In this document: in pieces, positions 2,722 through 62,830 of the stretch
Numbering within the stretch: position 1 is the first letter of the stretch
How the letters are laid out: every line of letters starts with the position of its first letter
Assembly: GCA_913062645.1 (NCBI GenBank)
Contig: CAJXVW010000001.1
Span: 558,001-622,000 of the forward strand
Reading direction: 5' to 3'
Origin: an uncultured Mycoplasmatota bacterium
GTDB lineage: Bacteria; Bacillota_I; Bacilli_A; Izemoplasmatales; Izemoplasmataceae
Length of the DNA stretch: 64,000 nucleotides
The notes under the pieces: model-generated
What the model saw: the letters and a program-made list of their open reading frames with translations, nothing else
Database searches by the model: none
What the model was told of the DNA's origin: nothing
Translations under genes and position numbers: made by a program

Positions 2722-4344
2722 ATGCCATCGAACAAGCGTCTCGATGACTTTTTCCAGAAGTCGAATCAGGAGCCCGAGGAACTCGCGAAATACTACGAGG
2801 ATCTGAACAAGGGCATCGATCCGACCAAACAAACCGTGGCCGACCGCGTCGCATACTTCTTCAAGAATCTCGCTCAGCGGGTGGAAGTCTTCTACAAGAA
2901 AGACAGCAAGAAGGAGAAGGACATCGAGGAGAAACACACCTCGTCGTTCCGCAAGCGACTGCGGGCCATTTTTCGGCTGATTGGCAGACGCTTCACCGAG
3001 AGTTTCAACTTCGAAGCTGGGGTCGACATCCTCGACAACACCTCGGTCCTGTTTCAGCGCAACAAGGTCAACCGCCGCATCCTATTCATCATCAACATCA
3101 TCTTCATCCTCTTCACCCTGATTGGCAACCAGCATCCCAATTACGTCGTCACGGCGGGATTCGCCCTGGCGATGTTCATCATCAGCCGGATGCTCCGCAG
3201 CATCATCAACGAACGACCACGAACGCTGCTCAAACAGCAGATGGCGATGTACATCGGCAGCGTCTACATCCTGATGGCGTCGATCGCCGTCTACATCAAA
3301 CTGCGCGTTTCGGCGGGCGGCGTCAGCATCGCCGATCTCGTCGGGGCCGGCAACACCGAAGGGATCTTGTCGTATATGACCGACATCTCGATCTCGCAGG
3401 CCGGCTACGTGCTGATTTTCTTCGCGCTGCTGGTCATCTCGCTCTACCAGGACGCGACGTTGCTGCGGATTCTGTTCCGTTTCGTGTTCCTGTTCATGTT
3501 CCTGCTTCACATCACGATCATGTACCCGCTCTACGAGCATGCATCGAGCATCACGTCGCTGTACAACTATCTGTTCGTCACCAATCTCAATGTGACGATT
3601 GACATCGTACTAAGGAGCATCACCTTGTTCGTGTTCTACCTAGCGCTCTATTCCTCGGTCGCGATCGGTCAGATGCTCAACAGCAAGCGCAAAGAAGAAC
3701 TGATCAAGCGCCGCGAAATGGAACACGACTTCACCGCCGTCGTCGGCGATGTCTTCGACGTCATCGGCGTCTTCAACAGCCACACCATCAACCAAAGCAA
3801 ACAAGACGTGCACCGCGTCGCCGAACTGGCCAGCCGACTCGCCAACATTCTCGGCCTGTCCAGCCGCCTGTGCACGGAAATCTACGAATACAGCGTTATC
3901 CACATCGACCGTGTCAACGACCTGTCGATCCTCGAATACGAAGGCAAGGACAGCCTCACCGAAAAGGACTACGCGGTCATCCGTGAAAAAACGATCCTCG
4001 GCTCGGTCGTCATCAAACGACTCCAGCTCAACCAGAAATCGGAAGACATCGTCCGCGCCCATTTCGAAAAGACCATCGATCCCAACTTCACGGAGAAGAT
4101 GAAACGCGTTCAGCGGAGCCAGGAAGGCCAGATCATCCTGCTTGCCGAAATGTACGACATCCTCCGTCAGGAGCGCAACTACAAGAGCGCGCTCAAGCAC
4201 AAGCGGGCGATCGATCTGCTGCAACTCGAATTCAAAGAATATTTCGAACCCTACATCCTCGACCGCTTCCTCAAGTATCAGATGGAGTTCGAAGGGTTCT
4301 ACGACAACTACAAATACTCGGAAGTAGGAGAGAAGACATCATGA
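2722..4344 (+). CDS. Multi-pass membrane protein with degenerate HD-GYP-like domain
   Basis: A 540-residue protein. The N-terminal ~115 residues are charged and soluble, followed by about seven hydrophobic segments (roughly 118-330) and a cytoplasmic C-terminal domain (about 340-530). That domain reads like [21 protein letters not shown], then LTEKDYAVI, a [18 protein letters not shown] stretch and [10 protein letters not shown] match family blocks in order. The metal-binding residues are mostly lost: the HD pair reads HID, and the HPEIG and HHE histidines are Lys-Thr and His-Phe. It therefore looks like a binding or sensing domain rather than a phosphodiesterase. The good AGGAGG site and overlap with metK (ATGA) place it in a pgpA-like/metK operon. 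Function is not known. Confidence 0.6.
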
Positions 4345-46968: not shown

Positions 46969-47604
46969 ATGATCACGATTTTGCTCCTTTTGGCGATGTT
47001 GCTGTACCTGGGATTGTTGTCCGACGGACTGACGATTCTGGCACTTTCGGCGATGTTCGGCATCGTTGCCTACAAGTGGCGCAACGTGCATCGGCTGGCG
47101 CCGTATTGGTATGGGATCGCCTTGTTGTTGGGCGTGCTTTCGGTGGTTTGGAACGACAGTCCGTATTTGTCGTATGTGTATCGCGGATTTCTGGGATATG
47201 CATTGATGCTGGTGGTGATGTTCGTCGGCATCCTCCCCAATCGCTCTTCGGTTGCGCGCAACATCAAGAAAAATCGGGGTGTTTATTCGATCTTGTCGTT
47301 TCTGCTGATCTCACCCCATGCCGCCTTGCATGTCTTCGGCGCGCTCGACGGTGTCAATCTGTTCGGCATCGTCGCCTACGTATTGATGGTCCCGCTCACC
47401 GTCATCAGCTTTCAGCTGGTGCGGCGCGAGATGGATCCGCGCGATTGGCGCAACGTTCAAAAAGCCGCGTATGTCATCTATCTGTCGCTGTTTGTCCACG
47501 TCATCTGGGTCGGCGACTGGTTCGATAAAAGCGTGTATGCCGTGCTGGCGACACTGTATGTCAACAACAAACTGATGAAGGAGTTGCGTCATGAAGCTGA
47601 TTGA
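46969..47604 (+). CDS. Ferric-reductase-like heme membrane protein (MsrQ/YedZ-type fold)
   Basis: A 211-residue protein with about six membrane helices. The layout fits the ferric-reductase-like transmembrane domain: RGFLGYALMLVVMFVGILPNRSSVA, then SPHAALHVFG (about 115-124) and SLFVHVIWVG (about 182-191), whose histidines are likely heme ligands. No flavin or NADPH domain is attached. CGGAGG precedes the ATG. It overlaps a 60-residue membrane protein gene and sits just upstream of cydAB. Electron donor and acceptor unknown. Confidence 0.6.
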   Translation: MITILLLLAMLLYLGLLSDGLTILALSAMFGIVAYKWRNVHRLAPYWYGIALLLGVLSVVWNDSPYLSYVYRGFLGYALMLVVMFVGILPNRSSVARNIKKNRGVYSILSFLLISPHAALHVFGALDGVNLFGIVAYVLMVPLTVISFQLVRREMDPRDWRNVQKAAYVIYLSLFVHVIWVGDWFDKSVYAVLATLYVNNKLMKELRHEAD

Positions 47605-47773
47605 GAGTTCCATCTATGCGTTGATTCTGTTTGTCGGCGTGTACGTCGTTATCAGTGTAGCGATGCGGGTGTTCGAGTGGACGACCGTGTTTTACGCCCA
47701 CGTCATCGGCGGCGTGGCCGCAACCGTGATTGGCGTTGGAGCGTTCGTGCTGTTTTTATTGAAAAAGAAGTGA
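47591..47773 (+). CDS. Small two-helix membrane protein
   Basis: A 60-residue protein with two hydrophobic helices (about 7-26 and 36-57), ending in LLKKK. Its start overlaps the end of the ferric-reductase-like gene by 14 bp, indicating coupled translation and likely partnership. Not recognised. Could be an accessory subunit of the heme membrane protein. A cydA promoter follows. Confidence 0.5.
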   Translation: MKLIESSIYALILFVGVYVVISVAMRVFEWTTVFYAHVIGGVAATVIGVGAFVLFLLKKK

Positions 47774-47794
47774 TGGCCAATGTTGTCATTGTGC

Positions 47795-47800
47795 TATAAT
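47795..47800 (+). promoter_or_regulatory. Extended -10 box of the cydAB-rnf operon
   Basis: TGCTATAAT: an extended -10 (TG-N-TATAAT), 29 bp before the cydA start. No -35 consensus seen, as expected for extended -10 promoters. Confidence 0.55.
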
Positions 47801-47828: not shown

Positions 47829-48998
47829 ATGGTAGAAATCTTGTCGCGACTGCAGTTCGCGCTGACGATTGCGTTTCATTTCATTTTCGTCCCGCTGACG
47901 GTCGGACTGATCATCATCGTACTCGTGTTCGAGTTTCGATATTATCGTAAGGGTGAGGAGAAGTTCAAGAAACTGAGCAATTATTTCAGCGACATCTTCC
48001 TCATCAATTACGCATTCGGAATTGTAACAGGAATCGCGATGACGGTCCAGTTCGGAACCAACTGGGGCAATTTCTCGATCGCCATGGGCGACGTGTTCGG
48101 GAGTCCGTTGGTGCTCGAGGCGATCATCGCCTTCTTCCTGGAGTCGACGTTCAACGGCATCTGGTTCTTCCGACGGCACGCGCTGTCGAAGGGGCTTCGG
48201 TTGTTGACGGTCGCGATGATCACGGCGGGAACGACATTGTCCGCGGTCTGGATCATCACCGCCAACGGGTTCATGCACAACCCCGTCGGCGCGACCTGGA
48301 ACGGCACCAAGATGGTGCTTGAGGACTTTGGTCAAATCGTGCTCAATCCCTATACGTGGTACATGTTCGTGCACAATCACCTGTCGGCCATCCTGCTGAG
48401 CGGGTTTGTTGTGCTGGCGATTTCATCGTGGCATCTGCTCAAGGGCAAAGCCGAAGACAAAGAACTGTTCAAGACGGCCGCCCGTTACGGCACCTGGATC
48501 ATTCTCATCACGTCGATCCTTCTGCCCGTGCTCGGCAACTCGTATCTGGCCTATCTGAACACGGTGCAACCGACCAAGATCGACATGATCACCGGTCTTG
48601 ACACGGCGGCGCTCGCCGTGGTCGTGCGTCTCAGTTTCCACGTCATGGTCGGGCTTGGTTTCGTGTTCCTCGGATTCGGCATTTACACCACCGTCTTCCG
48701 CAAGCGCTACGAACAGTCGCCGACCCTGCAGAAGTACTACATCTACCTTGTTCCCCTACCCTATATCGCCATCATCGCCGGCTGGCTCGTGACCGAACTC
48801 GGTCGTCAGCCGTGGATCATTTATGGCATCATGGAAACCAGTGCCGGCGTGTCCGACGTACCGGTCTCGCAAGTCTGGTTCTCGCTGATCACCATCGTGC
48901 TCTTTTACGGCATCCTGTTCGTGATGGACTATGTATTGACGATTGCCCGCATCAAGAAGGGCATTTTGGCACACGAGGGAGGTGTTGTCAATGAATAG
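47829..48998 (+). CDS. cydA: Cytochrome bd oxidase subunit I, Q-loop-less variant
   Basis: 389 residues, well below the usual 440-520. The redox core is intact: His17 (AFHFIF, heme b595), Glu97 and Glu105 (LEAII, LES), His182 (MFVHNH) and Met273 (HVMVGLGF) match the E. coli heme ligands and proton-path glutamates; GRQPW is near the end. The Q-loop is almost gone: only about 22 residues separate the conserved QPTK (247-250) from the Met273 helix, against 60 or more in short-loop enzymes. Lys252 of E. coli is kept (Lys250) but the essential Glu257 position is Thr255. Oxygen reduction is expected; quinol oxidation is doubtful. Overlaps cydB. Confidence 0.9.
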   Translation: MVEILSRLQFALTIAFHFIFVPLTVGLIIIVLVFEFRYYRKGEEKFKKLSNYFSDIFLINYAFGIVTGIAMTVQFGTNWGNFSIAMGDVFGSPLVLEAIIAFFLESTFNGIWFFRRHALSKGLRLLTVAMITAGTTLSAVWIITANGFMHNPVGATWNGTKMVLEDFGQIVLNPYTWYMFVHNHLSAILLSGFVVLAISSWHLLKGKAEDKELFKTAARYGTWIILITSILLPVLGNSYLAYLNTVQPTKIDMITGLDTAALAVVVRLSFHVMVGLGFVFLGFGIYTTVFRKRYEQSPTLQKYYIYLVPLPYIAIIAGWLVTELGRQPWIIYGIMETSAGVSDVPVSQVWFSLITIVLFYGILFVMDYVLTIARIKKGILAHEGGVVNE

Positions 48999-50025
48999 TG
49001 CGTTCTTGGGTGACGCCCTGTTTGTCGTCATCGCCCTGTCGTGGACCGTGTATCTTGTCCAGGAGATTTTCATCACCGGCTCCAGCGCGCTCAATCTCAC
49101 GCTCGCCAAGGACGAAGGCGAACGCAAGCAGATTCAGGTCGCCAGCGGTCTTCATTGGGACGGCATCGAAGTGTGGCTGATCGCCGCCATCGTCTTGACA
49201 TTCGGTGCGTTTCCATTGGCCTTCGCCACATCGTTCACCGTTCTGTATGTGGTGTTTTTCCTGCTTCTCTATGCGCTCATCACCCGTGGCGTCGTGATCG
49301 AAACCTTGTACAAACTCGACAATTCGAGATGGATCCGCGCCAACGCGATCGCCTGGAGCGTGTCCAGTGGATTGATCGTGTTCTTGCTTGGGGTTTACGT
49401 GACAAGCCTGTTCTACGGTTTGCCGATTGAAGCCGATCACAGCGCCAGCGGCAGTGTCTTCGCCCTGTTCAATGTGACGACGATCGGTGGCGGGTTGTTG
49501 TTTCTCAGTCTCGCCCTCGCCAGTGGCGCCGCATGGATTGCCCTGACTACCGAAGGCGCTCTTGCAGACAACGCAACGGCACTGATCAAGAAGTATGGCA
49601 TCTTCCTGATGCCGCCGGTGTTCTTATTGCTCGTATTCATGGGGTTCAACGTGCTGGATAACTCCATTTTCATCGGTGTGTTGTTCACCGCTGCTCCGAT
49701 CTTGTTCGTCTTGCCGGCCCTGACCTTTGTCACCAGTCTCGGCGTACTCTATTTCGGCCTCAAACAACAAGCCGATCGACTGTTCTTGTTTGCGCTGTTG
49801 ACGATGGCGTTGTTCCTTGTCACCGGCTTCGTCGGAACGTATCCGATCGTGTTGCCGTCGCGTGTCGATCCCGCATTCGGCATCACCATCGCCGACGCGA
49901 TGACGCAGGTCGCTTCGGCGCGGATCATCTTCATCGCCGTCTGTTTCTTTTATCCGCTCATCCTGTTCTATCAGGGTTGGAAATACAAGCGGTTTGCCCA
50001 GAAGGTCAAACCCCATGATGCGTGA
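48991..50025 (+). CDS. cydB: Cytochrome bd oxidase subunit II
   Basis: A 344-residue integral membrane subunit with about eight helices. The signature HWDGIEVWLIAA (about 55-66, with the conserved Trp-Asp) and RWIRANAIAWSVSSGLIVFLLG fit CydB, but the first helix lacks the usual TDGFDMG block (it reads FITGSSALN), so the residue matching E. coli Asp25 is changed. The frame is open to 48943 inside cydA, but GAGGGAGGTG before ATG 48991 sets the start. Eight bp overlap with cydA; rnfD1 follows after 12 bp. Confidence 0.88.
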   Translation: MNSAFLGDALFVVIALSWTVYLVQEIFITGSSALNLTLAKDEGERKQIQVASGLHWDGIEVWLIAAIVLTFGAFPLAFATSFTVLYVVFFLLLYALITRGVVIETLYKLDNSRWIRANAIAWSVSSGLIVFLLGVYVTSLFYGLPIEADHSASGSVFALFNVTTIGGGLLFLSLALASGAAWIALTTEGALADNATALIKKYGIFLMPPVFLLLVFMGFNVLDNSIFIGVLFTAAPILFVLPALTFVTSLGVLYFGLKQQADRLFLFALLTMALFLVTGFVGTYPIVLPSRVDPAFGITIADAMTQVASARIIFIAVCFFYPLILFYQGWKYKRFAQKVKPHDA

Positions 50026-50037
50026 GGAGGGGATTTT

Positions 50038-51096
50038 ATGGCTGCAAAGAAAGTAATGCTATGGCCGTCGACGCGCTCCAAGTTCGTCAAGGACAAGCAC
50101 ATGGAAATCCTGTACCGTTCCTTGTTGCTGGTGGCGCTCGTAATGGTCGTCGAAACGTATTTCATGTACTCCTTCATGTACGCGATCAAACTCGCCTTGA
50201 TGGTGCTTGTCTCAATCGTGCTCACCATCGAGATGGAGATTCTGTTCTATACCCATGACAAGGATGTGGATCGCCAGAAAGCGAAGGAACTGATTGTCAA
50301 ATCGTACCCGAAACTGACCGCGATCATCTACGCACTGCTGATTCCGATCGGCACGCCGCTGTGGTTGGTCGGGCTCGGTGCCGTGCTGGCCACGCTGCTC
50401 GGTAAGCTGATCTTCGGAGGATTTGCCCATCAGGTGTTCCACAGTTCGCTTGTCGGCGTCATCTTCGTGACTCTGGGATGGACGCAACTCGTCGATTCGG
50501 TCGCCTTCATGACATCGTTTGACAACTACATCCTCGAACTGATGTTCGACAACGCGTTCTTCAACAACAACCTGTCGCTGGGCGGCATGTACGATCCCGC
50601 CGATCTGACGAGTGCGCTCGGCATGTTGGCCGGTGGTGACGCATACGATTTCCATCTCGTGTTCCTCGGTCTTGCGCCGGGCATCACCGGGGCCGGTTTC
50701 GTGTTGGTCGGTCTGTTTGCCTATTACCTTGTCAAAGGCATCGTCAACTGGATTACCCCAACCATCACGATCGCCAGTTTTCTGGTCGTCGCGTTGATCG
50801 CGACCGCCGTCAACGGCGAAACGGCGATGTATCCGTTGCAACAACTGTTCAGCGGTGCGTTCCTGTTCGTCGTCGTGTTCGTTGTCACCGATCCGATCAC
50901 GACCCCGATTCCGACCATCGGCAAAATCATCTTCGGCGTCGTCGCCGGAGCATTGACGATGACGATCCGTCTCGCCGGAACCTATGAAGAAGGCGTGCTG
51001 TTTGCGGTATTGTTCATGAACATGCTGACGCCGCTTCTCAACGAGGTCTTCAAACAGAAGAAGAAACCCGTCAAGAAGGCGGTGGCAAAAGCATGA
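50038..51096 (+). CDS. rnfD: Rnf-type electron transport protein RnfD (set 1, beside cydAB)
   Basis: A 352-residue RnfD/NqrB-family membrane protein with about nine helices. Family blocks: PKLTAIIYALLIPIGTPLWLVGLGAVLA, LIFGGFAHQVFHSS, FVVTDPITTPIPT. The covalent FMN site, normally (S/D/A)GAT, reads DLTS (about residues 193-196) and looks degenerate; RnfD of set 2 keeps AGAT. GGAGGGG precedes ATG 50038. Operon with cydAB upstream and rnfG downstream (ATGA overlap). Confidence 0.85.
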   Translation: MAAKKVMLWPSTRSKFVKDKHMEILYRSLLLVALVMVVETYFMYSFMYAIKLALMVLVSIVLTIEMEILFYTHDKDVDRQKAKELIVKSYPKLTAIIYALLIPIGTPLWLVGLGAVLATLLGKLIFGGFAHQVFHSSLVGVIFVTLGWTQLVDSVAFMTSFDNYILELMFDNAFFNNNLSLGGMYDPADLTSALGMLAGGDAYDFHLVFLGLAPGITGAGFVLVGLFAYYLVKGIVNWITPTITIASFLVVALIATAVNGETAMYPLQQLFSGAFLFVVVFVVTDPITTPIPTIGKIIFGVVAGALTMTIRLAGTYEEGVLFAVLFMNMLTPLLNEVFKQKKKPVKKAVAKA

Positions 51097-51656
51097 AGAA
51101 AACACTGTATTTCGCGGCGTTTCTGACGGTTACCGCGATGCTTGTGACGGCAATCGCCTATCTGGGATATCATTATACGCAACCGATCATCGAAGCCAAT
51201 ACGATCGCCAAGATCAATGAAAACATCGCGCTGCTTTACAATCCGGACGAAGGCTACACGCGAAATGCCGATCAGGCGGACAACAGCTATAAGGAAAACA
51301 ACTCCAACTACAAGGAAATCTCATCCATCTACGAAGTACTGGATGGCGACGGGGAACTTCATGTCATCATTTATGACATGGCCGTGCAAGGGCGCAATGA
51401 CATCATTCACGCGCTGGTCGCCGTCGATCCCTACACATCGACGATCGCCGCCGTGACGTATTACGACCATGCGGAAACGCCGAACATCGGCGAAAAGTAC
51501 ACGCGTCAGGAGGCCATTGACACGTTGATCGGACAATCGCTTGACGATGTCCAGATCGACATGTACGCCGGTGCCACCACGACGTGGACGTCGCTCAACG
51601 TGATGTTCGACAAGATCAAAGAACACTACAATGCGGAAGGGGTGGCCGTCCAATGA
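51093..51656 (+). CDS. rnfG: Rnf-type electron transport protein RnfG (set 1)
   Basis: A 187-residue protein with one N-terminal membrane helix (about 5-27) and an extracytoplasmic FMN-binding domain. The flavinylation site is DMYAGATTT (about 159-167); the Thr is the expected FMN-phosphate attachment residue. Transfers electrons on the outer face of the membrane between RnfD and RnfB/E. ATGA overlaps on both sides show coupled translation. No apbE flavin transferase gene is in the window. Confidence 0.85.
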   Translation: MKKTLYFAAFLTVTAMLVTAIAYLGYHYTQPIIEANTIAKINENIALLYNPDEGYTRNADQADNSYKENNSNYKEISSIYEVLDGDGELHVIIYDMAVQGRNDIIHALVAVDPYTSTIAAVTYYDHAETPNIGEKYTRQEAIDTLIGQSLDDVQIDMYAGATTTWTSLNVMFDKIKEHYNAEGVAVQ

Positions 51657-52375
51657 GCAGAAAGAAGAAACGGCTCACGCCCAAGCAGAACATACTCAAG
51701 GGTCTGATCAAGGAAAATCCGACCTTCGTGCTCGTGCTCGGCATGTGTCCGACACTCGGAGTCACGACGTCGCTCGAGAATGGTCTCGGCATGGGACTGT
51801 CGGTATTGTTCGTGCTGATGCTGACCAACGCCGTCATCGCCTCGATCCGCAAGATCGTTCCCGATGAAATCCGCATTCCCGTCTACATTGTCGTGATCGC
51901 GCTGGTGGTAACCCTCCTCGAGTGGTTCCTCAATGCGTTCATTCCCAGTTTGTACGACGCGCTCGGCATCTTCCTGCCGCTGATCGTCGTCAACTGCATC
52001 GTGCTCGGTCGCGCCGAAGCGTACGCGTCCGACAACACCGTCGTCGATTCGATCTTCGACGGCATGGGCATGGGGCTTGGCTTCACGCTCGGTCTGTCGA
52101 CGCTGGCCTTCACCCGCGAGCTGCTTGGCACCGGCAGTGTCCAATTGCTTGGGTTCACGCTGTTCGACGCCAACAGCGCCGCAACGTTCCTCGTGCAACC
52201 GGCCGGGGCGTTCCTGACACTCGGTCTGTTGATCGGCATCATCAATACGGTGCGCATCGACCGCGAGAAGAAGAAACAGGCGATTCTCGATGAAAAGATC
52301 AAGATCGCACTGGCCAAAAAAGCGGCCAAGGAAGCCGCCAAGAAGAAACAACTCGAAGCAGAGGGGGCGAACTAA
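51653..52375 (+). CDS. rnfE: Rnf-type electron transport protein RnfE (set 1)
   Basis: A roughly 240-residue membrane protein with six helices. LVLGMCPTLGVTTS and IVVNCIVLGRAEA carry the two conserved half-membrane cysteines that with RnfA bind the intramembrane iron-sulfur site. A long charged C-terminal tail rich in Lys and Ala (about 205-240) follows. ATG 51653 overlaps the rnfG stop. rnfA starts at the next base after its stop. Confidence 0.88.
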   Translation: MSRKKKRLTPKQNILKGLIKENPTFVLVLGMCPTLGVTTSLENGLGMGLSVLFVLMLTNAVIASIRKIVPDEIRIPVYIVVIALVVTLLEWFLNAFIPSLYDALGIFLPLIVVNCIVLGRAEAYASDNTVVDSIFDGMGMGLGFTLGLSTLAFTRELLGTGSVQLLGFTLFDANSAATFLVQPAGAFLTLGLLIGIINTVRIDREKKKQAILDEKIKIALAKKAAKEAAKKKQLEAEGAN

Positions 52376-52951
52376 GTGGAAAATCTGTTGACACTCGCAT
52401 TCACGTCGTTTCTCGTTCAGAACATCATTCTGAATCAGTTCCTCGGCATCTGTTCGTTCCTCGGTGTGTCCAACAAACGCTCCAAGGCGATCGGCATGGG
52501 CCTCGCGGTGTTCGCCGTCATCACCCTGTCGAGCATGTTGACGTGGGCGATCTACTACCTGATTCTCGTTCCCGGTGAACTGACGTTCATGCGCACGATC
52601 GTGTTCATCCTCGTCATCGCCGGCATGGTTCAGATCCTCGAGATGGCGATCAAGAAGTTCAGCCCGTCGCTGTATGGCGCGCTCGGCGTCTATCTGCCGC
52701 TGATCACCACCAACTGCGCGGTGCTCGGGGTGTCGCTCCTGCACGTGCAAAACAACTTCACTTTCAGCGAGACCGTCGTCTTCGCGGCCTTCACGTCACT
52801 CGGATACACGGCCATCATCATCGTGTTCTCCTACATTCGCGAGCAGATGTATCGGGCGCCGATTCCCGAAGGCTTCAAAGGCATTCCCGCCGGATTGATC
52901 GCCGCCAGCATCATGGCGCTGATTTTCAAGGGCTTCGTGGGGCTGATCTGA
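52376..52951 (+). CDS. rnfA: Rnf-type electron transport protein RnfA (set 1)
   Basis: A 191-residue six-helix protein starting with GTG (GAGGGGG ribosome site). NQFLGICSFLGVS and PLITTNCAVLGVS carry the conserved cysteines, mirrored in RnfE. Forms the inverted RnfA/RnfE pair in the membrane centre. The RnfB-like gene starts 1 bp after the stop. Confidence 0.9.
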   Translation: MENLLTLAFTSFLVQNIILNQFLGICSFLGVSNKRSKAIGMGLAVFAVITLSSMLTWAIYYLILVPGELTFMRTIVFILVIAGMVQILEMAIKKFSPSLYGALGVYLPLITTNCAVLGVSLLHVQNNFTFSETVVFAAFTSLGYTAIIIVFSYIREQMYRAPIPEGFKGIPAGLIAASIMALIFKGFVGLI

Positions 52952-52952
52952 C

Positions 52953-53252
52953 ATGTGGATCGCGATCTTGCAGATTGGCGCGATCGGACTCGTGCTCGGC
53001 GTCGCCATCGGCGTCGCCAACAAGTATCTGGAGGTCAAGGTGCCTCCCATGGTGCAGACCGTCTACGACCGCTTGCCGCACTTCAACTGCGGCGCCTGCG
53101 GAACCCCGGGATGCATGGCGATGGCGAATGCCGTCGTCAACGACGGCTACCCCGTCACCAACTGCAAACCCGGCACCGATCAGATGAAGCGGGAAATTCA
53201 AAAGCTTCTGGATGATTACAAGTCAGGAAAATTGACGTTTGACGAAGAGTGA
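52953..53252 (+). CDS. rnfB: Short RnfB-like protein lacking the ferredoxin domain (set 1)
   Basis: 99 residues, about half the smallest usual RnfB (about 190). The N-terminal helix (about 4-22) and the first cluster motif NCGACGTPGC plus NCKPG are present, giving four cysteines for one [4Fe-4S]. The domain with two ferredoxin clusters that normally follows is missing; the gene ends in a terminator, not in a decayed extension. Last gene of the cydAB-rnf operon. The truncation is matched in set 2, so it is likely ancestral. Confidence 0.85.
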   Translation: MWIAILQIGAIGLVLGVAIGVANKYLEVKVPPMVQTVYDRLPHFNCGACGTPGCMAMANAVVNDGYPVTNCKPGTDQMKREIQKLLDDYKSGKLTFDEE

Positions 53253-53277
53253 TTTCGCGAGAAATCGCTCTTTTTTT
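53248..53277 (+). terminator. Terminator of the cydAB-rnf operon
   Basis: AGTGATTTC-gcga-GAAATCGCT (one G-U pair) followed by cTTTTTTT, starting in the rnfB stop. Confidence 0.88.
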
Positions 53278-53335: not shown

Positions 53336-53347
53336 ACACGTGGATTA

Positions 53348-53531
53348 ATCTTCAGGGCAGGGTGAAATTCCCGACCGGCGGTAACAGTCCGCGAGCGCGA
53401 GAGCGCATGAATGGGTGCGATTCCCATACCGATAGTACAGTCTAGATGGAAGAAGATGAAACAACGGTGGGAGAGGTCTCCCCCGATGTCCTTTTTCACG
53501 TGCCCAACGAAGATCCATTCGTTGGTTTTTT
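53348..53531 (+). ncRNA. FMN riboswitch (RFN element) before ribU
   Basis: The aptamer (53348-53458) has the conserved ATCTTCAGGGCAGGGTGAAA start, CCCGACCGGCGGTAA, GCGAGCGC, GATAGTACAGTCTAGATGG and the closing GAAGAT. The platform contains GGGAGAggTCTCCC and a final terminator CCAACGAA/TTCGTTGG with T6 (53504-53531). FMN binding is expected to switch off riboflavin uptake. Confidence 0.95.
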
Positions 53532-58059: not shown

Positions 58060-59370
58060 ATGATTAAGAAATCCAGCAAAGTGCGGGATTACAAGGAGCT
58101 GACAAAGGCTCTGCCGACGATGGACTTTCTCGAACCCGAGAGCGTCTACATTCATCTGCAGAACGGCCGATGCAAAACCTACGACCTGCACGTCAAGGAC
58201 GGTGACCATGTGACCGTCGGACAGGTAATCGGCGTCCGCCACGGCGGCTTTTTCGAGCAACCGATCCACGCCACCGTCAGCGGCACCGTCGGACCCGTCA
58301 CCAAGAAACTGCACCGCACCGGTCGCAAGGTCGACTGCGTGGAAATCCGCAATGACTTCAAAGAGACCTACCACGAATCGGTTGTCAATCGACCCGATCA
58401 TGTCATCGACCAGCTGACCCAGCAGGAGATGGTCGACATCCTTCGCGAGAAATCGCTTGTCGGTCTCGGTGGCAGCGGCTTCCCCACACACATCAAACTG
58501 GCGACCAAGGATCCGATTCACACGGTCATCATCAACGCCGTCGAATGCGAACCCTATCTGTCCAGCGACTACCGCCTCATCATCGAAGATCCGCAGCGGG
58601 TGTTGCTGGGGCTCAAGTATATTCTTCAAGCACTGAAAGCGGAGCGTGGCATCATCGCCATCAAGAGCGACAAGAATCCGCTCAAGGAAGTGCTGGACCA
58701 AGTGCTCACCGTCAAGTTCCCGGACCTTCCCGTCGAAGTCATGAAACTCGGCAATCACTATCCGCAAGGATGGGAGATCGAAGTGTTCCGCGCCGCCCTC
58801 GGCCTCGATGTGCCTTATGGCGAACTGCCGACCAAATACGGCGTCATTTCGTTCAATGTCTCGACCACGGCCGGCGTCCATGACGCGATCAAATACAACC
58901 TTCCCGTCATCAGCCGTTATTTCACGCTGACCGGTGATGCGATAGAGTTCCCGCAGAACTACCACGTCAAGGTCGGCACCAGCATCAAGCAGCTGATCGC
59001 GCTGTCCGAAGGATACAAAGAAGAATACGACAAAGTCAACGTGATCATGGGTGGTCCGATGATGGGCGTCAGTACCGTATCCGATGATGTCATCGTATCG
59101 AAGACGACGACCTCGGTCATCGTGCTCGCCGACACCGACTATCACGAAGAACCCTGTGTCCGCTGCGGCAGCTGCGTCTACAGTTGTCCGGCGCGGATCG
59201 AACCGGTTCAGATCATGAACGCCGTCAAAAAGAACCACAAGGAACTGATGAAACAGCTCGGCGCCTACAAATGCGTCGAATGCGGACTCTGTGCATACGT
59301 CTGCACCAGCAAGATCCACGTTACCGACTATGTCCGCAAAGCCAAGAAACTGGTAGGTGATATCCGATGA
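58060..59370 (+). CDS. rnfC: Rnf complex subunit RnfC (set 2)
   Basis: The cytoplasmic NADH/flavin subunit of Rnf. 436 residues. An N-terminal barrel-sandwich hybrid region (about 25-95), the FMN/NADH fold with GLGGSGFPTHIKL (about 136-148) and NAVECEPYLSSDYR (about 159-172), and two C-terminal [4Fe-4S] motifs CVRCGSCVYSCP (about 367-378) and CVECGLCAYVC (about 406-416). Only copy of rnfC in the window; it could serve set 2 alone or both sets. Coupled to rnfD by ATGA. Confidence 0.95.
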   Translation: MIKKSSKVRDYKELTKALPTMDFLEPESVYIHLQNGRCKTYDLHVKDGDHVTVGQVIGVRHGGFFEQPIHATVSGTVGPVTKKLHRTGRKVDCVEIRNDFKETYHESVVNRPDHVIDQLTQQEMVDILREKSLVGLGGSGFPTHIKLATKDPIHTVIINAVECEPYLSSDYRLIIEDPQRVLLGLKYILQALKAERGIIAIKSDKNPLKEVLDQVLTVKFPDLPVEVMKLGNHYPQGWEIEVFRAALGLDVPYGELPTKYGVISFNVSTTAGVHDAIKYNLPVISRYFTLTGDAIEFPQNYHVKVGTSIKQLIALSEGYKEEYDKVNVIMGGPMMGVSTVSDDVIVSKTTTSVIVLADTDYHEEPCVRCGSCVYSCPARIEPVQIMNAVKKNHKELMKQLGAYKCVECGLCAYVCTSKIHVTDYVRKAKKLVGDIR

Positions 59371-60443
59371 GTTACACACCGACCATCGTCCGCAAGACCA
59401 GCCCGTATCTGCGCCGCCCCCAGGCGACCGTGGTACGGATGATGCGCGATGTCGTCATCGCGCTCCTTCCCGTGACGGCCTTCGCCGTCTACAACTTCGG
59501 CATCAGTGCCGTCTACATTCTGCTCGCCGCCATCTTGTCGATGGTGGTGACCGAATACGTGTACTACCAGGTCATCGACCTGCTCAACAAGGAATCGTTC
59601 CAGTGGAAGAACAAGAGTTTCACGCTCTATAACTACACCGCGCTCGTCAGTGGTCTGATCTACGGCCTGACGCTTGCGGATGGGACCCCGATCTGGGTCG
59701 TGGTCGTATCGGGATCGCTCGGGATCCTGATGGCCAAGCATTTCTTTGGCGGACTGGGCCAGAACATCTTCAATCCGGCCGCCCTTGCTCGCGTGCTTGT
59801 CGCCATCAACTTCGCGACCTTCGCCACCTACGACGCCCATGTCGCCGACATCGACGGCGTCGCCGGCGCGACCGTGCTCGGCGTCCTCAATGACAGCAGT
59901 TTTTCCACGGCGATGCTTGCCGACTTTCCGCTGTGGCGGATGTTCACCGGCATCGGCCTGCCCGGCAGTCTCGGTGAAGTCAGTGCGCTGTTGATTCTGA
60001 TCGGCGCGATTTATCTCGGCGTCCGCACCAGTTTTGAAGTGCGCATTCCGATCGCTTACGTGTTGACGGTCTTCGTGCTGGCCGGTGTCGTTGCCCTCCA
60101 GAAGGGGCTTGGCATCTGGTATCCGCTGACGCACGTGCTTTCCGGCGGCGTGATGTTCGGTGCCGTGTTCATGGCCACCGATCCGATCACTTCGCCAATC
60201 AGCATGCCCTCGCGGGTCTATTACGGATTCGCGCTTGGTTTCGTGACGTTCATCATTCGGCTGTTCGGGGCGCTTCCCGAAGGCGTCGTCTTCAGCATCC
60301 TAATAATGAATATGTTCGTCCCGAGTTTCGATTATGTCAAGTGGTCATATCCGCGGTTCACCAAACGAGGAACGTTGCTGTTCGCCGGCGTCATCGTCGT
60401 TGCGATCGCGATCGTCATGGCAGGTGTTCATTATGTTGGATAA
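59367..60443 (+). CDS. rnfD: Rnf complex subunit RnfD (set 2)
   Basis: A 358-residue membrane subunit with about nine helices and covalent FMN. RRPQATVVRMMRDVVIALLP at the start and the flavinylation motif DGVAGATVLG (about 166-175) are intact, unlike set 1. FMATDPITSPISMP is the C-terminal signature. Overlaps rnfC by 4 bp and rnfG by 11 bp. Confidence 0.95.
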   Translation: MSYTPTIVRKTSPYLRRPQATVVRMMRDVVIALLPVTAFAVYNFGISAVYILLAAILSMVVTEYVYYQVIDLLNKESFQWKNKSFTLYNYTALVSGLIYGLTLADGTPIWVVVVSGSLGILMAKHFFGGLGQNIFNPAALARVLVAINFATFATYDAHVADIDGVAGATVLGVLNDSSFSTAMLADFPLWRMFTGIGLPGSLGEVSALLILIGAIYLGVRTSFEVRIPIAYVLTVFVLAGVVALQKGLGIWYPLTHVLSGGVMFGAVFMATDPITSPISMPSRVYYGFALGFVTFIIRLFGALPEGVVFSILIMNMFVPSFDYVKWSYPRFTKRGTLLFAGVIVVAIAIVMAGVHYVG

Positions 60444-60969
60444 ACTGAAAACCGCATTGGTGCTGTTCGTCATCGCGACCGTCGCCGGATTGATGATTTT
60501 CGGGACCAACGAGCTTACTTATGATGGCATCGTCGCCAACCGACTGGCTCGGGAACAGGCCTTTTACAAAGCGATGTTCGATCTTGATGAAGACAGCGAC
60601 ATCACCACGATTTCCGCCGAACTCGATGGCGTTTTGGACGAAGAGTTAGCCATTTATGATGATCAGAATAACCTCATGGGTTATGTCTACAAAGGCGAAG
60701 AAACCAATAATTACGGTGACATAACCGTATTGGTCGGCGTTCGCATCGACGGCACCATCGTTCAGGTCGTGATTTCATCGACCACCAACACACCGACCTT
60801 CGTCAAGAAGATTGAAACCACCTATCTCGCACCGTTCGTCGGGCAAGACACGACCGATGTGACCTACGACGAACGCACCGGTGCGTCGTATACCTACGGC
60901 AGCGTTCAGAGGTTCGTCGAAGCCGCCGCCGATTATTTCCAGAACGAACGGGGAGGTGACGCGTCGTGA
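60433..60969 (+). CDS. rnfG: Rnf complex subunit RnfG (set 2)
   Basis: A 178-residue protein with one N-terminal helix and an extracytoplasmic FMN-binding domain. The flavin site reads DERTGASYTYGS (about 150-161), with Ser/Thr acceptors in the (S/T)GA(T/S)xT pattern. The frame is open upstream to 60334, but ATG 60433 after AGGTG begins the membrane helix. It overlaps rnfD by 11 bp and rnfE by 4 bp. Confidence 0.88.
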   Translation: MLDKLKTALVLFVIATVAGLMIFGTNELTYDGIVANRLAREQAFYKAMFDLDEDSDITTISAELDGVLDEELAIYDDQNNLMGYVYKGEETNNYGDITVLVGVRIDGTIVQVVISSTTNTPTFVKKIETTYLAPFVGQDTTDVTYDERTGASYTYGSVQRFVEAAADYFQNERGGDAS

Positions 60970-61727
60970 GTACAAAAGACAATTTCCTCAAGGGGTTTGT
61001 GAAGGAGAATCCGATTTTCGTGTTCCTGCTCGGCATGTGTCCGGCGCTGGCCGTCACCGCGACGGTCGAAACTGCGCTCGGCATGGGCATCCTCGTGGTG
61101 TTCGTGCTGACCAGCAGCAACATCGTCGTCAGCCTTGTTCGCAAGTTCATTCCTAATGATGTGCGGACGCCATCCTATATTGTCATCATCGCCACGTTCG
61201 TTACCATTGTGCGGATGATGACCGAGCGCTACGCACCGGATCTCTACATTGCCCTCGGCGTATTCATTCCGCTGATCGTCGTCAACTGTCTGATCCTCGG
61301 TCGCGCCGAAGCATTCGCTTCGAAAAACACCGTCTTCGACAGCATGATCGACGGCCTCGGCATGAGCCTCGGGTTCACGATGGCGCTGGTCATCATCGGG
61401 GTCTTCCGCGAACTGCTCGCAACCGGTGAAATATTGTACGGTGTCTATTTGCCGTTCTTCGTGGAGAGTGAAATCGCCATTTTTGATCTGGACTGGTTGA
61501 TTCCGCTCTCGGGCGCATCCGTCAACGATTACATGCTGCCGATGTTCAGTCTCGCCCCGGGTGCGTTCATCGCGCTGGGCATCATCCTCGCCGTCATCCA
61601 GCGTCGTAAAGTCGTCGGTGACGAGAAGAAAGAAGCGGCCCGGCAAGCGATGATCGAAGAGAAGAAACGGCTTGCTCTCGAACGTAAGAAAGCGGCAGCC
61701 AAGAAGAAAGCAGGTGAGGCGGCATGA
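60966..61727 (+). CDS. rnfE: Rnf complex subunit RnfE (set 2)
   Basis: A 253-residue six-helix subunit starting with GTG (GGGAGGTG ribosome site). LLGMCPALAVTAT and IVVNCLILGRAEA hold the conserved cysteines. A loop insertion (about 160-190) and a Lys/Ala/Glu-rich C-terminal tail (about 220-253) distinguish it from standard RnfE. Coupled to rnfA by ATGA. Confidence 0.92.
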   Translation: MSTKDNFLKGFVKENPIFVFLLGMCPALAVTATVETALGMGILVVFVLTSSNIVVSLVRKFIPNDVRTPSYIVIIATFVTIVRMMTERYAPDLYIALGVFIPLIVVNCLILGRAEAFASKNTVFDSMIDGLGMSLGFTMALVIIGVFRELLATGEILYGVYLPFFVESEIAIFDLDWLIPLSGASVNDYMLPMFSLAPGAFIALGIILAVIQRRKVVGDEKKEAARQAMIEEKKRLALERKKAAAKKKAGEAA

Positions 61728-62329
61728 GTTTCACGGTATTCGCCACCGCCATCGTCAGCGCGATGCTGATCAACAACGTCATCCTGATGCAGTTCCTCGG
61801 TGTCTGTCCGTTCCTCGGTGTATCGAAACGCACGTCGAGCGCAATCGGCATGTCCGCCGCTGTGTTGTTCGTGATGGTCGTCGCCAGTGCGGTCACCTAC
61901 ACCATCTATGATCTGATTCTGTTTCCCTATGACATTCCCTACATTTCGACGATCGCCTTCATCCTCGTCATCGCGTCGCTCGTGCAACTCGTCGAAATGG
62001 TCATCAAGAAATACAGTGCGCCCTTGTACAAGGCGCTCGGCATTTATTTGCCGCTGATCACCACCAACTGCGCGATTCTCGGCGTCAGCGAAGGCAACAT
62101 CGCCTCGATCTGGACCGAAACAATGCCCTATGGCGAAGGTTTGTTCCTCGCCGTCTCGACGGCGATCGGCACCGGTCTCGGGTTTGGTCTTGTCATCTTC
62201 GCGTTCTCGTCGATTCGTGAACGGCTTGACGCCGCGAACGTACCGAAATCATGGCAAGGTGTTCCGATCAGCCTCCTCGTCGCCGGCATCATGTCGCTCG
62301 CGTTCCTCGGTCTGCAGGGGGTGATCTGA
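61724..62329 (+). CDS. rnfA: Rnf complex subunit RnfA (set 2)
   Basis: A 201-residue six-helix subunit. MQFLGVCPFLGVS and PLITTNCAILGVS carry the conserved cysteines. The next gene, a Cys-rich mini-protein, starts on the last base of its stop codon (TGATG). Confidence 0.94.
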   Translation: MSFTVFATAIVSAMLINNVILMQFLGVCPFLGVSKRTSSAIGMSAAVLFVMVVASAVTYTIYDLILFPYDIPYISTIAFILVIASLVQLVEMVIKKYSAPLYKALGIYLPLITTNCAILGVSEGNIASIWTETMPYGEGLFLAVSTAIGTGLGFGLVIFAFSSIRERLDAANVPKSWQGVPISLLVAGIMSLAFLGLQGVI

Positions 62330-62502
62330 TGCAAGCATTCGTACCCTACATCATGCTCGGCAGTCTGGTCATGCTCTACATTCTGTCCTATGCGCTCAAC
62401 AAGCGCACGGCACCACCCGCGGACTGTCTGAGTGACATCGAGAAAGTAGCCTGCAAGGCCTGTCACAATTTCTCGTGCAGTCACCACGGAGGTGACGACT
62501 GA
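62329..62502 (+). CDS. Cys-rich single-helix mini-protein within the rnf operon
   Basis: A 57-residue protein inserted between rnfA and rnfB of set 2. One N-terminal membrane helix (about 5-23) is followed by a short cytosolic or external tail with four cysteines (33, 42, 45, 50) arranged C-x8-C-x2-C-x4-C. The last three have the same spacing as the CGACGYPGC motif of RnfB, so an iron-sulfur cluster is plausible. The open frame extends upstream into rnfA, but the TGATG junction sets the start. Overlap with rnfB (its stop overlaps the rnfB ATG) makes coupled translation likely. Not a standard Rnf subunit; set 1 lacks it. Confidence 0.7.
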   Translation: MQAFVPYIMLGSLVMLYILSYALNKRTAPPADCLSDIEKVACKACHNFSCSHHGGDD

Positions 62503-62807
62503 TGGCCGCGACCCTGACCCTCGCCGTAATGGGCCTGTTGCTCGGACTTGGTCTGGCGTACGCCGCGGAGTTCTTCAAGGTCGAGGTCGACGAACGGCTG
62601 GAGGAAGTCGAAAACCGGCTTCCCGGTTACGACTGCGGTGCCTGCGGGTATCCCGGTTGTGCCGCCTTCGCCGAAGCGATCGTCACCGGCGAAGCCGAGA
62701 AGCTGTCTCTATGCAAACCCGGCAAAGACGAACATTACAATGCCATTTTGGAGTATCTCAAGGATCATCCGAACAAGGACGGATCTCCCGTCGACATCAA
62801 AAAATAG
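62502..62807 (+). CDS. rnfB: Short RnfB-like protein lacking the ferredoxin domain (set 2)
   Basis: 101 residues: a membrane helix (about 4-22), then DCGACGYPGC and a later LCKPG, four cysteines for one [4Fe-4S]. The two-cluster ferredoxin domain of normal RnfB is absent, as in set 1. It closes the operon and is followed by a strong terminator. In this lineage the RnfB role as ferredoxin acceptor must therefore be filled by RnfC clusters, the mini-protein or a free ferredoxin. Confidence 0.88.
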   Translation: MAATLTLAVMGLLLGLGLAYAAEFFKVEVDERLEEVENRLPGYDCGACGYPGCAAFAEAIVTGEAEKLSLCKPGKDEHYNAILEYLKDHPNKDGSPVDIKK

Positions 62808-62830
62808 ACAGGTTGCGACCTGTCTTTTTT
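62806..62830 (+). terminator. Terminator of Rnf operon 2
   Basis: AGACAGGT-tgcg-ACCTGTCT followed by T6, starting at the rnfB stop codon. Confidence 0.92.

Follow-up and report, generated by a model that had tools for sequence, protein, structure and literature searches.

A cytochrome bd oxidase without Q-loop joined to a stripped-down Rnf suggests a way to breathe oxygen without quinones in the Izemoplasma group

Organization of the cyd-rnf gene cluster

We analysed a stretch of 64,000 nucleotides (the window) from an uncultured relative of the Izemoplasmatales, whose genome of 1.99 Mb is 99.7% complete; genome-wide work on this host comprised 12 family or protein searches. The features of the region are compiled in Table 1. 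Seven genes in the order cydA-cydB-rnfD-rnfG-rnfE-rnfA-rnfB occupy positions 47829-53252, and their families (Pfam, NCBIfam), their coordinates and the overlaps or gaps of at most 12 bp all agree with the closely packed set described in an earlier note on this DNA. The terminator which that note placed at 53248 corresponds to a strong hairpin followed by a T run, and the unit behind it opens with a perfect consensus promoter and an FMN riboswitch. Of the extended -10 promoter proposed ahead of cydA, the sequence TGTGCTATAAT is present, but it has no -35 box and is missing from the output of the sigma-70 scan. The conserved cluster begins further upstream than cydA, with the genes for an MsrQ-like protein and for a 60-aa protein that matches no Pfam family.

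Table 1. Features of the cyd-rnf region and of the second Rnf set (positions in the window)
Feature	Position	Strand	Evidence or remark
MsrQ-like / ferric-reductase-like membrane protein, 211 aa, candidate b-heme electron carrier	46969..47604	+	PF01794, E = 6.7e-6, just under cut-off
60-aa two-helix membrane protein, no known family	47591..47773	+	invariant His37
Extended -10 promoter-like TGTGCTATAAT, without -35 box	47790..47800	+	read in sequence
cydA, cytochrome bd oxidase subunit I without Q-loop, 389 aa	47829..48998	+	PF01654, 1.2e-112
cydB, cytochrome bd subunit II	48991..50025	+	PF02322, 1.2e-53; TIGR00203 over cut-off
rnfD, Cyd-linked set; flavin-Thr motif degenerate	50038..51096	+	PF03116, 4.7e-49
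rnfG, extracytoplasmic FMN carrier; flavinylation motif DMYAGAT	51093..51656	+	PF04205, 7e-8
rnfE, half of intramembrane [2Fe-2S] site	51653..52375	+	TIGR01948 over cut-off; two invariant Cys
rnfA, other half of [2Fe-2S] site	52376..52951	+	TIGR01943, 3.7e-66; two invariant Cys
Short rnfB, 99 aa: one TM helix and one 4-Cys Fe-S domain	52953..53252	+	PF04060, 1.8e-12; Cys46, 49, 54, 71 invariant
Intrinsic terminator	53244..53273	+	hairpin -17.2 kcal/mol, z = -4.3, then T run
Second, conventional Rnf set: rnfC-D-G-E-A-small Cys-rich ORF-short rnfB	58060..62808	+	comparison set

The cyd-rnf cluster has no rnfC, neither in the window family nor in the related genome G090 (see below). The earlier note was right on this for the cluster, but the genome does carry a complete rnfC (58060-59370) at the head of the second Rnf set, 5 kb downstream, and its product could serve as a partner of the Cyd-linked set. 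The short RnfB indeed matches PF04060 only and lacks a ferredoxin domain in the Pfam search; as a sign of rewiring, however, it was rejected, as the complete Rnf at 58060-62808 carries a short RnfB too. Elsewhere in the window, at about 23.4-26.0 kb, we read an operon resembling 2-oxoacid:ferredoxin oxidoreductase.

Conservation of the linkage across genomes

A close CydA was found in 8 of the 90 genomes of the order, and the same CydA is carried by the named relatives Candidatus Izimaplasma HR2 and Ca. Izemoplasma acidinucleici as well as by other Mycoplasmatota MAGs. The order cydA-cydB-rnfD-G-E-A-B is kept in all seven informative genomes of the family (the window included), that is, in those whose contig reaches the downstream genes; the contig of the eighth, G056, stops in cydB. 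On every contig that extends far enough, cydA is preceded by the msrQ-like and 60-aa genes. A class-wide search of 395 genomes yielded three further families (G090, G091 and G119). G090 carries cydAB-rnfDGEAB, with the MsrQ-like and 60-aa genes missing beside it, while G091 has a single cluster of another order, rnfD-G-E-A-B-nuoE-nuoF-HydA-like-HydA-like-rnfC-like-msrQ-orf60-cydA-cydB, in which these two genes again directly precede cydA. In G119 cydAB is found without rnf nearby. Neither order-wide searches around these three genomes nor a sample of 392 genomes from the phylum revealed additional cases.

Thus the synteny of cydA, cydB and rnfD, which the earlier note had wished to see checked, is not limited to the host genome. 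At 75 unrelated CydA loci no rnf gene turned up in the surrounding 8 kb, as far as the contigs extend, and since the arrangement is kept in 7/7 informative family genomes and in two further families, chance adjacency of cyd and rnf can be rejected. Linkage of cyd to rnf is a genuine variant, unusual and conserved, found in three families and two gene orders.

The two proteins encoded upstream of cydA are conserved as well. His117 and His177 of the MsrQ-like protein are invariant in 8 homologues, but its AF2 model is poor (pLDDT 62) and gave no significant fold match; the 60-aa protein, with one invariant His, recurs at all 9 loci compared, G091 among them. Judged from its sequence, one of the HydA-like proteins of G091 has TSDSPAL in place of the hydrogenase motif TSCCP and is therefore probably devoid of an H-cluster. 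The NuoEF-like and HydA-like subunits of this genome suggest an entry for NADH.

A CydA without Q-loop

The window CydA belongs to the bd superfamily, as the defining ligands His19, His186, Met393 and Glu445 (E. coli numbering) are all conserved. The heme ligands H17, H182, M273 and E323 are kept in the window and their counterparts in the relatives, E97 and E105 are retained too, and the AF2 model of the protein matches a solved bd CydA (7oy2_C, E = 7.8e-16). What is absent is the Q-loop with the quinol site, by which quinol-oxidising bd oxidases (qOR) are recognised. From the residue matching E. coli Lys252 to the one matching Arg391, the interval in the window protein measures 22 residues, as it does in the linked CydA of the family, compared with 140 in E. 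coli and 73-79 in the 75 comparison CydA (one truncated contig excepted), and positions 252-309 of the PF01654 profile are missing. In cryo-EM the quinone lies on the periplasmic side beneath the lid of the Q-loop (residues 259-306), at a distance of 6.7 Å from heme b558 (PMC13189123); the region of this lid is wholly missing in the window CydA. Of the residues regarded as holding the loop and not as binding quinone, Lys252 and Glu257 (PMC13189123), the former is retained in the window, whereas the latter is replaced by Thr (Thr or Asn within the family, Ser in G090, Val in G091), although it is kept in 75/75 comparison CydA and in G119.

The Q-loop is lost in G090 and G091 as well. All CydA without the loop group together in a single clade (100/100), at the base of which G119 branches off, long branches advising caution. 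G119 has a Q-loop-less CydA with Glu257 kept and without linked Rnf, yet it possesses the quinone prenyltransferase UbiA, encoded next to a polyprenyl synthase and an NDH-2-like protein. Loss of the Q-loop alone is therefore no proof of quinone independence.

Motifs and ancestry of the Cyd-linked Rnf

In the Cyd-linked set the cysteines of the [2Fe-2S] site shared by RnfA and RnfE and the four cysteines of RnfB are invariant, and the flavinylation motif of RnfG, D-x-x-[AST]-G-A-[ST] (PMC12052999), is present in 7/7. The core thus comprises intact A, E, G and one-cluster B subunits, with B lacking the ferredoxin domain, together with a D subunit whose flavin motif is degenerate. The motif D-x-x-x-x-A-T is absent from the window RnfD, where Ser occupies the aligned residue; it is degenerate in 7/7 Cyd-linked sets of the family and has Tyr in G090. 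RnfD of the second set keeps DGVAGAT, and the motif is intact in G091, whose cluster holds an RnfC-like protein. A clean rule that the RnfD flavin is lost wherever RnfC is missing was weakened, as the motif is degenerate and not deleted, and as set 3, which has an RnfC-like protein, deviates too.

The Cyd-linked Rnf of the three families share common ancestry: in a concatenated RnfD/E/A tree they form one clade (96/91), separate from the second set of the host, set 3, E. coli, two Clostridia and Nqr; a tree of RnfE alone does not set this clade apart. Nor is the cluster an NQR, given that nqrA and nqrF are missing from it, that RnfB is present and that in the tree the set stands apart from Nqr.

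Quinone and heme supply

The earlier note had also suggested a look at quinone synthesis genes, and here the search covered UbiA alone among the genes of the pathway. UbiA was found neither in the host nor in nine relatives (0/10 genomes of the linkage lineage, nine of which show rnf in the cluster, while the contig of the tenth, G056, ends in cydB), while 14/14 controls were positive. Judged by UbiA, synthesis of quinone by the cell itself, a further mark of the qOR type, would be missing in these ten genomes. Ferrochelatase was likewise not found in any of the 7 genomes tested, so that heme must come from outside or be made by another route. With heme probably external, quinone could be taken up as well.

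Proposed mechanism

Taken together, we lean towards the reading that the cluster codes for an oxygen reductase that works independently of quinones and is fed directly by a truncated Rnf. The quinone-free, Rnf-fed oxidase envisaged in the earlier note gains strength from the loss of Q-loop and Glu257 with heme ligands kept, the ten genomes without UbiA, the linkage in three families and the single Rnf clade, while a physical complex, direct transfer from Rnf to CydA, direction of flow, identity of the donor, reduction of O2 and ion pumping are steps that we infer. For the more specific version, a ferredoxin (or NADH):oxygen oxidoreductase module in which the RnfC-less core passes electrons from the FMN on the outer face to heme b558 of the Q-loop-less bd oxidase, with neither quinone nor cytochrome c and possibly with pumping of Na+, we consider the chances about even.

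In canonical Rnf, electrons pass from RnfB via RnfA/E, RnfG, the FMN of RnfD and riboflavin to RnfC, where RnfG acts as a swinging extracytoplasmic carrier between RnfA/E and RnfD (PMC12174285). With a D subunit of structural role beside B, A/E and G, the truncated Rnf would take cytosolic electrons from ferredoxin, presumably the natural donor in the window family, whereas in G091 the donor would be NADH through the NuoEF-like subunits. The electrons would cross the membrane from the [4Fe-4S] cluster of RnfB via the [2Fe-2S] cluster of RnfA/E to the FMN of RnfG at the outer face, and the usual continuation from the RnfD flavins through RnfC to NAD+ would be bypassed. RnfG would instead dock at the former place of the Q-loop and reduce heme b558 of CydA, perhaps via the MsrQ-like heme protein, which may form part of the path; docking on CydA instead of RnfD is plausible because the FMN domain of RnfG and the former Q-loop site lie at the same outer face and RnfG swings between partners. 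From b558 the electrons would reach b595 and heme d, where O2 would be reduced to water. Such a module would likely serve an anaerobe to remove O2 and to re-oxidise its ferredoxin. Since outward electrons and outward protons to heme d roughly cancel, a gain in energy would depend on pumping of Na+ or H+ still taking place at the RnfA/E/D step.

Alternative explanations

Some lactic acid bacteria respire when heme and menaquinone are added, and in a comparable manner CydAB could still be a quinol oxidase working on scavenged quinones, with Rnf a separate machine that is co-transcribed for redox balance under O2. The probably external supply of heme, the retained K252 and the combination of a Q-loop-less CydA with UbiA and NDH-2 in G119 would fit with this, as would the quinone pool assumed in the Xianfuyuplasma coldseepsis genome paper (PMC8397711). 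We nevertheless hold it to be unlikely, given that every linked CydA has lost the lid as well as Glu257, a residue that the 75 compared proteins and G119 retain, that UbiA was not found in ten genomes, and that one Rnf clade is linked to cyd across three families and two gene orders.

The position of the msrQ-like and 60-aa genes directly ahead of cydA in the family and in G091, together with their invariant His, might indicate that CydA draws its electrons mainly from a cytosolic reductase by way of the MsrQ-like b-type cytochrome and of the 60-aa protein, with Rnf a partner or an alternative source. MsrQ-like proteins are described as flavin-associated transmembrane cytochromes in PMC11334425 and PMC8238504; still, neither gene lies beside cydAB-rnf in G090, the PF01794 match stays under the cut-off and the structure model is poor, which makes this reading distinctly improbable. 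More improbable again is that the Cyd-linked set is a second ordinary ferredoxin:NAD+ Rnf that borrows the RnfC of the neighboring operon, with cyd merely co-regulated. The complete rnfC 5 kb downstream would allow for it, but the RnfD flavin motif required en route to RnfC is degenerate in 7/7 sets and Tyr in G090, Cyd-linked Rnf and second host set fall into separate clades, and the Q-loop-less oxidase would be left without a donor.

Significance

By general teaching, dehydrogenase and oxidase of an aerobic electron transport chain have to be linked by a mobile quinone or by cytochrome c. If direct feeding of CydA by Rnf holds true, two membrane machines can be wired directly, an Rnf core to a bd oxidase without quinol site, and this would explain how wall-less fermenters related to Mollicutes handle O2 without quinones, in a group for which a published genome paper had assumed a quinone pool (PMC8397711). 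As far as gene sequences can tell, the Izemoplasma-group oxidase and its stripped-down Rnf suggest a way to breathe O2 without quinones.

Comparison with known systems

Papers on the group (PMC8397711, PMC7761423, PMC6256511) list Rnf and bd oxidase as distinct components, two of them along with quinone-linked enzymes. A literature search, with Skennerton 2016 and Murali 2021 outside its coverage, returned no description of cyd-rnf linkage, a missing Q-loop or absent quinone synthesis in the group. With the quinol bd oxidases (qOR1; E. coli CydAB, PDB 6rko, 7oy2) the window protein shares the CydA/CydB fold, the ligands of b558, b595 and d, the GRQPW motif and the equivalents of Glu99 and Glu107, but it differs in the Q-loop interval (22 versus 140 or 73-79 residues), the loss of Glu257, the linkage to rnf and a host without UbiA. 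Among the subfamilies of the bd superfamily, OR-C is linked to cytochrome c. OR-N is reported as CydAA' in Nitrospirales (PMC12342949), and both subfamilies go back to Murali et al. 2021, as cited in PMC13189123. Both have in common with our cluster a bd-type CydA outside the quinol-binding qOR group; what differs here is a CydAB pair joined to Rnf, a distinction drawn from the descriptions of these subfamilies, and the grouping of Murali et al. may already include the clade.

NQR/RNF-like and other flavinylation-based extracytosolic routes also send electrons outward through Rnf-type parts and have a D subunit without flavinylation site, but the NQR/RNF-like systems comprise two subunits and an NAD-binding domain, and the passages of PMC8238504 and PMC11334425 that describe them name no bd oxidase as partner. 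Finally, the [2Fe-2S] cysteines of RnfA/E, the covalent-FMN motif of RnfG and the homology of RnfD and RnfB are shared with the ferredoxin:NAD+ Rnf (PDB 7zc6, 8ahx, 9eri), from which the present system differs by a cluster without RnfC, a one-cluster RnfB, a degenerate flavin site in RnfD and the proposed coupling to an oxidase.

Genes accompanying the cyd-rnf operon

Wherever it occurs, the gene of a 60-aa protein lies between an MsrQ-like gene upstream and cydA downstream; the protein is possibly a new small subunit of the oxidase or of a cytochrome. The flavin-dependent cyd-rnf operon is followed immediately 3' by an FMN riboswitch and an ECF transporter S component, the latter probably serving riboflavin uptake. 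The window's conventional Rnf set and the Cyd-linked set of G090, a genome from another family, have in common a Cys-rich single-helix ORF that matches no known family. In the cyd-rnf cluster of G091, from a further family, a NuoF-like gene precedes the two HydA-like genes, one with a degraded H-cluster motif, and an RnfC-like gene follows them. CydA of the relative G119 (loci L114 and L119) has lost the Q-loop and retained Glu257, and this genome encodes UbiA, a polyprenyl synthase and an NDH-2-like protein; G119 may represent an intermediate state.

Further Rnf-type and Nqr loci

The third Rnf-type set of G000 comprises a [FeFe]-hydrogenase-like protein, RnfC-like, RnfD, RnfG (641 aa, several FMN-binding repeats), RnfE and RnfA, with no RnfB in the set. 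At the Nqr locus of this genome, which lacks UbiA, no nqrA adjoins nqrB-C-D-E-F; a lipoprotein-like protein with at least five cytochrome b5 domains adjoins them on the opposite strand. This Nqr may have been rewired for sending electrons outward.

Table. Locations of the features
Feature	Location	Strand	Position or property
60-aa membrane protein	window 47591-47773		two helices, one invariant His
FMN riboswitch	window 53344-53461		5' of ECF transporter S component gene
Small Cys-rich ORF, single helix	window 62330-62502		between rnfA and rnfB, conventional set
Small Cys-rich ORF, single helix	L113 (G090) about 4084-4272	-	between rnfA and rnfB, Cyd-linked set
Two HydA-like proteins (G091)	L117 99-3694 and L112 10449-11588		
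Third Rnf-type set (L121)	G000:C1:425105-432304		
nqrB-C-D-E-F and cytochrome b5-domain protein (L122)	G000:C1:1366521-1370362 and 1372841-1374439
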